From Eubacteriales Family XIII. Incertae Sedis bacterium (GTDB lineage Bacteria > Bacillota > Clostridia > Peptostreptococcales > Anaerovoracaceae), in NCBI GenBank assembly GCA_031263335.1, contig JAISGB010000053.1, forward strand, positions 1 to 13,479: DNA of 13,479 nucleotides, in the 5' to 3' direction. The translations under genes were made by a program, and so were the position numbers. The notes below the pieces were generated by a model that was given only the letters and a program-made list of their open reading frames with translations, was not told the origin of the DNA and did no database searches. The stretch's first letter is position 1; each line of letters starts with the position of its first letter. This document shows, piece after piece, positions 1-8,484 of this stretch.

Positions 1-114
1 GTTCGGGTTCCAATGCCTGTTTTGGCTCCCCGGAGCGTACACAGACGTACGTGAGGAAGACAAAACAGGCATTGGGTTCCGGAATACGCAAAAATAGCGT
101 GACCGTTGAGTAGT
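1..114 (+). repeat. Structured intergenic repeat, copy A (left end outside window)
   Basis: Short blocks match copy B at 5997-6215: GGGTTCCAA, TTGGCTCCC, GCGTACACAGA, GTACGTGAGGA, GGAATACGCAA and AATAGCGTGAC, ending in GACCGTTGAGTAGT at 101-114, one arm of the inverted repeat of copy B with two changes. Base 1 corresponds to about base 6039 of copy B, so the left arm lies outside the window. Bases 10-24 and 61-75 form a perfect 15 bp inverted repeat (CCAATGCCTGTTTTG and its complement), extended outward by 2-7 with 78-83. Inside the loop, GCTC/GAGC (25-28 with 33-36) and GTAC/GTAC (37-40 with 47-50) can form two further hairpins, giving a branched fold. The copy ends 12 bases before the -35 box of the FIST gene. 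I do not recognise a named family. It could be a non-autonomous mobile element or a structured RNA element. Confidence 0.75.
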
Positions 115-126
115 TACCATGTATGA

Positions 127-4927: not shown

Positions 4928-6001
4928 ATGGACTTCAACAAAATCTTCATCAAGGACGCCCGGCCGACGAAGATCGGCGGCCAAGCCGTCATGGAAGGCA
5001 TTATGATGAAGGGAGAGGAGCGTACCGCGGTCGTGGTGCGGCTCCCCGATTCTTCTCTGTACATGAAAACGGAAAAACTCAAGGCGCGCGGAAAGTGGTA
5101 TAAAGTTCCCATCATCCGTGGCGTCCTGATCTTCATCGACTCATTGCTCACGGGGGTGAGAACCCTCATGCTCTCGGCGGAGCTCTTGGAAAGCCATGAT
5201 GAAGAAGGCGCGGAGGACGCGGAACCCGTCGAGAACGATCGGTTCACGAATTGGCTCATCAAGCACTTCGGGGAAAAGGCGCCGTTGAATCTCGCCCTCA
5301 TCACATCCGTGGCGCTCGCCATCGTCTTTACCGTAGGGATATTCATCATCGCGCCCACTTGGATTGTAAACATCCTCGACGGCGTGATCGCGAACGACGT
5401 CGCGCTGAACCTGACGGAGGGCGTGTTTCGCATCCTGCTCTTCGTCCTCTATATCTTCCTGATCTCCAAGATGAAGGACATCCGGACGGTCTTTCAATTC
5501 CACGGCGCGGAACACGAATGTATCCACTGCTTTGAGGGCGGCCTCGAACTGACGCCGGACAACTGCGACCAATTCGAAACCCTCCATCCGCGATGCGGCA
5601 CCAGCTTCCTCATGTTCGTCATGGTCATCGCGCTCCTGCTCTTTTCGCTCTTGGGTTGGCCGAGCCTGCTCATCCGCATCCTGTCGCGGCTGATCCTGAT
5701 CCCCGTCATCGCCGGCCTTTCCTATGAACTGCTCCGATGGGCGGGCAGCAGCTCATCCCCCGTGGTAAAGATACTGAGTGTCCCGGGCCTGCTGTTGCAG
5801 AAGCTGACCACGCGCAAGCCCGACAAGCGTCAACTCGAAGTCGCGATCGCGGCCATGAAGGCGGTGCTCGTCCCGGCGGAAACGCCCGTATACGAAGGCG
5901 TCTGCGATCTGAACGGCGAACCCGTCCCGGAACCGGAACCCGGCCCCGAACCCACGGAAACGACAACGGATGACGAACCCGATCCGGAATTAAAAATTTA
6001 A
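4928..6001 (+). CDS. yqhQ: DUF1385 family membrane protein, YqhQ-like
   Basis: Predicted 357-residue multi-pass membrane protein of the DUF1385/YqhQ family, annotated in databases as a possible metal-dependent enzyme; the reaction is unknown. The N-terminus carries the family signature IGGQAVMEGIMMKG (16-29). Hydrophobic segments lie at about 119-149, 166-181, 225-243 and 249-270. Between the second and third is the conserved FHGAEHECIHCFE (191-203), whose His, Glu and Cys could bind metal, and a further Cys-rich stretch to HPRCGTSF. The C-terminal tail from about 331 is a Pro/Glu/Thr-rich extension outside the family core. ATG follows the rho stop with no gap (TAG ATG), with AGAGGA just upstream, so the genes are translationally coupled. 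The last bases of the gene, including the stop, lie inside the sequence shared by repeat copies B and C. Confidence 0.9.
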   Translation: MDFNKIFIKDARPTKIGGQAVMEGIMMKGEERTAVVVRLPDSSLYMKTEKLKARGKWYKVPIIRGVLIFIDSLLTGVRTLMLSAELLESHDEEGAEDAEPVENDRFTNWLIKHFGEKAPLNLALITSVALAIVFTVGIFIIAPTWIVNILDGVIANDVALNLTEGVFRILLFVLYIFLISKMKDIRTVFQFHGAEHECIHCFEGGLELTPDNCDQFETLHPRCGTSFLMFVMVIALLLFSLLGWPSLLIRILSRLILIPVIAGLSYELLRWAGSSSSPVVKILSVPGLLLQKLTTRKPDKRQLEVAIAAMKAVLVPAETPVYEGVCDLNGEPVPEPEPGPEPTETTTDDEPDPELKI

Positions 6002-6070
6002 ATCAAAACTATTCAACAGTCGCGATAGTTTTGATGGAGTCCGGGTTCCAAGAGCGGATTTGGCTCCCAG

Positions 6071-6104
6071 CACTTGGGATGAGACTTGGCTACGCCTCGC
6101 AGTT
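6071..6104 (+). repeat. Inserted module 1 within copy B
   Basis: A 34-base block starting CACTTGGGATGAGACT and ending CGCAGTT, placed between the conserved TTGGCTCCC and GCGTACACAGA blocks. It is absent from copy A at the equivalent point (about 31-35) and resembles the block at 6162-6193. Confidence 0.65.
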
Positions 6105-6161
6105 GCGTACACAGATGTACGTGAGGAGGTCAAATTCGGTCTTGGGTCCCGGAATACGCAA

Positions 6162-6193
6162 CACTTAGAATGAGACTCACTTCGTTCGCAGTT
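6162..6193 (+). repeat. Inserted module 2 within copy B
   Basis: A 32-base block starting CACTTAGAATGAGACT and ending CGCAGTT. It matches module 1 over its first 16 bases with two changes and over its last seven exactly. It sits between the conserved ACGCAA and AATAGCGT, where copy A has only a few A residues. TTGGGT (6142-6147) and TAGAAT (6166-6171, in this module), 18 bases apart, form a weak candidate promoter reading toward prmC. Confidence 0.6.
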
Positions 6194-6233
6194 AATAGCG
6201 TGACTGTTGAATAGTCTCTTTGCGAGGAGCATT

Positions 6234-8399: not shown

Positions 8400-8420
8400 C
8401 CGCATCCTCCTGTAAGGTTA

Positions 8421-8484
8421 ACGATTCAACATTTGAAACCCGGACTCCGGCAAAACTATCGCGCCCGCTGACTCGTTTTGATTT
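8421..8484 (-). repeat. Structured intergenic repeat, copy C (short, internally deleted, inverted)
   Basis: Read on the minus strand it begins TTTAAATCAAAAC (complement of 8472-8484), as copy B does at 5997-6009, then continues with CGCGATAGTTTTG and GGAGTCCGGGTT, also in copy B. After TTTCAA it jumps directly to TGTTGAATCGT, resembling the right arm GACTGTTGAATAGT of copy B. The central hairpin region is therefore missing. The end sequences ACGAGTCAGCGG and the complement of 8421-8432 (ACGATTCAACAT) are still partly complementary. It lies between the purF stop and the capA ribosome site, in the direction of their transcription. Confidence 0.65.

Follow-up and report, generated by a model that had tools for sequence, protein, structure and literature searches.

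A probable non-autonomous MITE family from a bacterium of Clostridiales Family XIII type, and a hairpin tip that it shares with repeats of other phyla

The 13,479-nt stretch of DNA analysed here (the window) is an entire contig (C211) from a source genome of 1.57 Mb in 279 contigs, which is 58.8% complete. Three look-alike stretches within the window—A (1-117), B (about 6001-6218) and C (8417-8483, inverted)—represent one repeat, with each copy lying in a gene gap and oriented like the neighbouring genes. According to our reading of the open reading frames, A sits upstream of a sensor-type gene, B is flanked by a gene for a DUF1385-type membrane protein and by prmC, and C is flanked by a capA-like gene and purF. 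In a repeat search of the window, A and B came out as direct repeats of 66 nt and 30 nt, both at 80%, and B and C as an inverted pair (55 nt, 85%), in agreement with an earlier note on this DNA that had proposed three copies of one repeat. The features of the three copies are as follows:

1..117, + strand: copy A, 5' part missing (repeat search, 99% identity to another copy)
30..57, + strand: intact hairpin tip of copy A, CCGGAGCGTAC-loop-GTACGTGAGGA (sequence; covariance model R2, see below, matches at 18-71)
5982-6000, + strand: 19-nt 5' extension of copy B, not recognisable
6001..6218, + strand: core of copy B, from AATCAAAAC to the decayed 3' terminal repeat
6008..6027, + strand: outer stem of copy B, left arm (20-nt inverted repeat)
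6071..6104, + strand: nested 34-nt insert, which breaks the 5' half of the tip in copy B
6105..6127, + strand: remainder of the tip of copy B, GCGTAC...GTACGTGAGGA (sequence)
6162..6193, + strand: nested 32-nt insert in the 3' A-rich loop of copy B
6196..6215, + strand: outer stem of copy B, right arm (20-nt inverted repeat)
8417..8483, - strand: copy C, inverted, inner hairpin deleted

The terminal inverted repeat of B (6008-6027/6196-6215) spans 20 nt at 90% identity and contains the perfect 14-base inverted repeat that had been noticed near the ends of this copy. The same note had described conserved blocks with differing or missing spacers; the unity of the repeat stands and the account of the spacers has to be corrected, as the blocks of B look spaced apart because of its two nested inserts, C is an internally deleted form from which the inner hairpin has gone, and A is incomplete, its 5' part missing at the contig start. 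Since the outer terminal repeats are decayed or absent in A, B and C, none of which has intact ends, the ends of the element were read from better-preserved copies elsewhere.

The nested inserts belong to a repeat of approximately 33 nt (CRCWTRGGATGWGAC...CGCARCT) found at preferred loop sites of the element and seen also in loci L003, L006, L008, L018, L026, L054 and L324-L326. All 14 distinct occurrences lay inside an element (in source-genome stretches that were all centred on elements) and viral contigs contained none. Short forms also recur (L442, L443, L444; L448-L451) through deletions between short repeats: either the inner hairpin has been lost from between CCGG repeats or nearly the whole element from between CAAA repeats, a pattern that resembles slippage across a hairpin.

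The expectation that the genome would hold many more copies was borne out. Searches of the source genome returned 59 matching pieces for copy B and 56 for copy A. We extracted 44 loci, left out 17 (truncated, insert-bearing or duplicate) and used the remaining 27, from three genomes, for an alignment on which covariance model R1 was built. In the source genome, R1 yielded 60 rows corresponding to at least 40 distinct places, 20 of them matched on both strands; this is a lower bound because 150 of 730 candidates were scored. Copies were detected by blastn in 3/60 genomes and by R1 in 18/148 family genomes (at most 20 candidates scored per genome), the source genome being included in both counts. 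Neither of the two other genomes of the genus gave a blastn match and the same-genus genome G002 gave no R1 match either. Those records with the repeat family that carry names are Clostridiales Family XIII metagenome-assembled genomes (MAGs), and the sequence in one of them (L114) is identical to that of a copy from G026 (L071), which suggests a host of this type. In genome G008 we found 79 exact end sequences, many about equally distant from contig starts, which is the signature of numerous near-identical copies breaking the assembly. The earlier note had allowed for a match to an already named family; Rfam returned none above the gathering threshold in the window, two weak chance matches only in the 400 bases around B, and only rRNA and tRNA matches in 18 other loci.

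Element ends, target duplications and an empty orthologous site, such as the note had suggested looking for, were found. The intact element is approximately 174 nt long, with a core of 154 nt, and runs from GTTACTACTCA, 18-19 nt to the left of AATCAAAAC, to TGAGTAGTAAC, its mirror at the right-hand end; these terminal inverted repeats are decayed in many copies. Ends were studied in 60 high-scoring copies (20 each from G026, G130 and G008). Left ends were tried 14-23 nt out and the best 8-bp flank match was kept, for 59 copies, the sixtieth being left out as it had no right flank; in one of the 59 (L307) the left flank was too short for a fair test. An 8-bp duplication with no more than one mismatch was present in 15/59 copies, against 0.34 expected from re-paired flanks: it was perfect in seven (0.02 expected) and off by one in eight (0.32 expected), and there was no clear duplication in 44. 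The left end fell at 18 or 19 nt in 11 of the 15 duplicated copies and at 16, 20, 21 and 23 nt in the remaining four. Clean duplications include CAATCATA, GTCCGGCT, CTATATCG, ATTATATG and ATTTTTCC. The gap orthologous to that of copy B is empty in G002 (one site), where purF comes immediately after prmC and both the capA-like gene and copy C are missing.

Among the candidates from a scan of 30 stretches for paired ends, two were inspected and neither encloses a transposase: the pair in L329 consists of two remnants around a housekeeping gene, and that in L327 (positions 2478-2936; G130, contig C14) bounds a 459-bp element without the tip, which lies at the end of a recombinase-like gene. This element has the same terminal repeats and is a second non-autonomous family using the same ends. 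For the IS66 family, seven genomes contained a single gene (G000, contig C223), which was not bracketed by element ends. Neither search yielded a transposase with the ends of the element.

Copy B, taken with 8 nt of flank, folds at z -6.15 and copy A at z -5.82, with 0/200 shuffles as good in either case. For the 27 aligned copies, RNAalifold predicted 53 pairs, with compensatory changes in 26; 97.1% of cells are paired and 151 are changed on both sides. The covariation score of 0.318 compares with 0.139 for shuffles and no more than 0.062 for slid controls, and five fold measures exceeded 500/500 shuffles. Slid controls were far lower on score, cells paired and double changes, a comparison that somewhat favours the structure, as this was derived from the same alignment. 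The inner arms vary in sequence among copies and keep their complementarity. The tip (consensus CC-GGAGC-GUAC-loop-GUAC-GUGA-GG-A) is the most constant part of the element: among 77 copies of 145-160 nt from four genomes, shared variants per site number 0.32 in the tip, 1.73 in the arms, 1.81 at other positions and 4.0 in the terminal loop.

All 77 copies, related by common ancestry, fold better on the sense than on the antisense strand. Six pairs are mostly G-U; outside these, G-U cells outnumber A-C cells by 78 to 24, and among pair types seen only once there are 12 G-U and 14 A-C. Uncompensated shared variants kept or broke the pair in a weighted ratio of 45.7:16.6 and uncompensated private variants in a ratio of 8:20 (Fisher p 0.00015 on rounded numbers, with cells that are not independent events); with compensated ones counted, 24 private variants kept the pair and 21 broke it. 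Most copies in the duplication, wobble and variant counts had been chosen for high scores. As shared variants mostly keep the pairing and roughly half of the private ones disrupt it, the sense-strand fold appears to be tested during propagation, with resident copies decaying after insertion. Private variants, too, are rarer in the tip, with three in 22 sites, than in the arms, with 43 in 90. This is at odds with unrestrained decay of inserted copies and may reflect either the choice of high-scoring copies or a real constraint after insertion.

Similar tips cap hairpin repeats, many of which are high-copy, far beyond this family. The pattern GGAGCGTAC-N3..9-GTACGTGAGGA was found in at least 116 stretches from a collection with one genome per species, against roughly three by chance on a rough estimate. 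Among the matches listed, 80 titles cover about ten bacterial phyla and many MAGs, and include Bacillota, several proteobacterial groups, Myxococcales, Syntrophus, other deltaproteobacteria, Scalindua, Nitrospirae, Chlorobi, Bacteroidales, Acidobacteria and Rokubacteria; in IMG/VR, 12 contigs carry the pattern. We took 100 tips with enough flank, some of them from the same genome, leaving out viral contigs and 13 loci of the window family (11 by title, two by sequence). The base before GGAG, which the pattern leaves free, is C in 100/100 of these tips and the base preceding it is C in 98/100. At least 13 pairs formed in 60-nt arms in 97/100 tips, against 16/31 control GTAC hairpins, some of which are perhaps decayed members. 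For 44 tips (of 47 selected), covariation of the arms was 0.194, against 0.069 in shuffles; since a slide by one column still gave 0.150 and counts of changed pairs and of pair types were not above shuffles, the evidence for the register of the arms is moderate.

These 44 aligned tips served to build covariance model R2, which matched in all 13 genomes searched, of 14 picked for holding the pattern. Matches numbered 106 in Scalindua, 75 in Chlorobi, 61 in Nitrospirae, 55 in Myxococcales, 26 in Bacteroidales, 25 in Syntrophus and 23 in a Rickettsia endosymbiont, with 17, 16, 8, 7, 7 and 2 in the others (rough E-values, at most 150 candidates each). In an even sample of Bacillota, R2 matched at 1e-5 in 10/299 genomes, the source genome included; the tip class is broad but unevenly spread. 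Within a single genome, several tip-bearing families that differ in their ends can coexist, as in Syntrophus (L432-L437) and in Nitrospirae (L421-L430). Outside the window family (L381-L440), repeats of several phyla have a second conserved block below the tip; it is CAAGGC-like in the left arm and AACGC-like in the right, and ERIC has a similar form of it. One Myxococcales copy (L127) starts abruptly at the tip and lacks the left arm.

In Scalindua, the element is bounded by TANNTA on both sides; of 21 copies, 16 could be evaluated and nine show it exactly, where 0.89 would be expected. With regard to strand, the arms prefer the sense in 56/56 copies of the window family, 21/21 in Scalindua and 6/6 in Syntrophus, and in 7/11 in Nitrospirae, 3/8 in Chlorobi and 0/4 in E. 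coli. Across the 100 tips, the sense strand is preferred in 41 cases with 25-nt arms, in 57 with 40-nt arms and in 60 with 60-nt arms, a mixed preference that weakens the idea of an RNA-level function for every tip family. The tip also resembled a kink-turn, but in nearly all 44 tips CC is followed directly by GGAG; as this leaves only one nucleotide before the G-A pairs, which does not suit the rules for kink-turns, we make no such claim. Nor do we claim an integron attC site, a group II intron domain, IS200/IS605 ends or a binding site for CsrA or for the ribosome (Shine-Dalgarno), which were considered as well.

Our literature searches, whose scope did not extend to the original ERIC, YPAL and RSA papers, turned up no earlier report of the shared tip: among the matches listed, no title on such a repeat came up for tip sequence words of 9 and 11 bases and nothing relevant for RSA by name, and wording that combined RNA with MITE had no match.

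The tip, or a variant of it, is present in known repeats. A repeat of approximately 150 bp, presumably the RSA of Rudd 1999, is present in 5375/5426 E. coli genomes at a median of five places (six in the laboratory strain BM28), and has the exact tip in three of the four loci inspected, with two changes in the fourth. Between nfi and hemE, a 147-bp insertion in E. coli is absent from 56 of 60 records taken at even steps, which give two-piece matches about 147 bp shorter; comparison of filled (L309, L314) and empty (L312, L313, L315) sites places CTTAG at both ends of the insertion. This presumably resembles the YTAR targets of IS5-type elements. At a second locus, qseG-qseE, 59/60 listed records are filled. 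The E. coli repeat thus shares the tip, the hairpin and a location mostly in gene gaps with the window family, but its ends (AGAGCCT.../...AGGCTCT) and its 4-5 bp duplication (CTTAG, at the site analysed) are not those of the window family.

ERIC, the 127-bp enterobacterial repeat, is likewise a long single-hairpin MITE in gene gaps, and a real copy from E. coli has the tip CCCCGGGAGCTTACATAAGTAAGTGACTGGGG, with the same GGAGC...GTGA internal loop. Its arms and the apical stem of its tip differ, and it lacks GAGGA; its ends, too, differ from those of the window family, and its duplication is TA, according to the part of the source consulted (PMC2759123). With an 8-bp duplication and other ends, the window family is not ERIC, and only the tip loop is common to both. 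YPAL/RU-2 of Yersinia (~168 bp) could be compared by description only: as far as the consulted part of the source goes, it is a high-copy, intergenic and mobile repeat with internal inverted repeats, but with a duplication of variable length, 3-26 bp (PMC2229807). REP/REPIN sequences, which have RAYT transposases, are also palindromic, high-copy and intergenic; the portion of the source seen gives them 20-40 bp and two super-families named for GTAG and CGTC tags (PMC3733652), whereas the window element is longer, with its 154-nt core and 174-nt full length, and has target duplications.

The repeat is short, non-coding and present in many copies, with terminal inverted repeats, a constant duplication and one empty orthologous site, as is characteristic of a MITE. 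The choice that the earlier note had left, between a small non-autonomous mobile element and a structured RNA, comes out as a mobile element with a structured strand. We consider it very likely (probability approximately 0.88) that we are dealing with a non-autonomous MITE family from a bacterium of Clostridiales Family XIII type, with a DDE-type transposase acting in trans, a tip that does not depend on that transposase and a fold selected at the level of propagation. Matched ends together with 8-bp duplications make a DDE-type enzyme the most likely one; supplied in trans, it would cut and join the element ends. Between these ends, one strand forms a long hairpin capped by the conserved tip, with selection on the fold probably exerted while copies propagate rather than after insertion. 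The folded strand may act as transcribed RNA or as single-stranded DNA, and we infer that it has a role in propagation. The tip itself is a module independent of any particular transposase, because relatives have other ends and, where measured, other duplications (4-5 and 6 bp); and as three duplication classes (8, 6 and 4-5 bp), as well as ERIC with TA, share the tip loop, it is hard to explain the tip as a transposase site.

Other origins for the repeat are far less probable. A structured regulatory RNA of the host, a leader or 3'-end element copied to many genes and acting in cis, would account for the strong covariation and for the position of A, B and C in gene gaps, oriented like their neighbours. 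Neighbouring open reading frames, called with a custom routine for 86 copies in four genomes (28 from the source genome; two copies at contig ends left out), bear on this directly. In the source genome 17 copies run with both neighbours and six against, as such an RNA would have it, but across all four genomes 35 run with both and 26 against both, 12 lie between converging and nine between diverging genes and four lack a neighbour, and G026 has five with and 12 against. Together with the patchy spread (18/148 family genomes), the empty orthologous site and the target duplications, this makes host cis-regulation unlikely. In 34 of the 39 cases with an opposed right-hand neighbour, the distance between the stop codon of that gene and the element end is -4 to 8 nt; these data cannot separate an insertion preference from the removal of harmful insertions. 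A retroposon, spreading by reverse transcription of the folded RNA and insertion of the cDNA in the manner of a bacterial SINE-like element, seems slightly less probable still: the uniformly better sense fold, the surplus of G-U over A-C cells outside the mostly-wobble pairs and the abrupt start of L127 at the tip are in its favour, but 8-bp duplications with matched terminal inverted repeats fit a transposase, as does the 6-bp TANNTA in Scalindua. Least probable of all is a single-strand element (HUH, IS200/IS605 or REP-type) in which hairpins are the transposase signal. The hairpin anatomy suits it and the GTTAC-like end sequence presumably resembles the target of some IS200/IS605 members, but GTTAC belongs to symmetric ends and duplications are clear in a quarter of copies; such elements are not known to make target duplications.

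A separate doubt concerns the tip alone. It is possible, if on balance improbable, that the tip does no more than allow a long palindrome to survive as DNA, for instance through altered handling by hairpin nucleases or replication, and has no role as RNA. Its occurrence whatever the ends, the recurrent deletion of the inner hairpin across short direct repeats, which hairpins in replicating DNA would be expected to undergo, and the lack of an overall orientation bias speak for this; but the motif is asymmetric, with G-A facing G-A on one strand only, and in the window family one strand has several pairs fixed as G-U wobbles. Returning to the MITE with a structured strand, we tentatively suggest, as a bolder extension that may well prove wrong, that the tip is a pan-bacterial module kept by many unrelated MITE families, in which a folded single strand would engage a universal bacterial factor and so propagate better under any transposase.

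In the parts of the literature that we consulted, bacterial MITEs are described genus by genus. A tip common to families with different ends, spread over about ten phyla and present in a repeat of nearly all E. coli genomes, points to strong and general selection on part of the element interior. It makes the long-standing question of what lets hairpin repeats like ERIC spread and persist testable in laboratory E. coli. If the tip is such a module, ERIC and the E. coli repeat would both belong, as local members, to a single ancient class.
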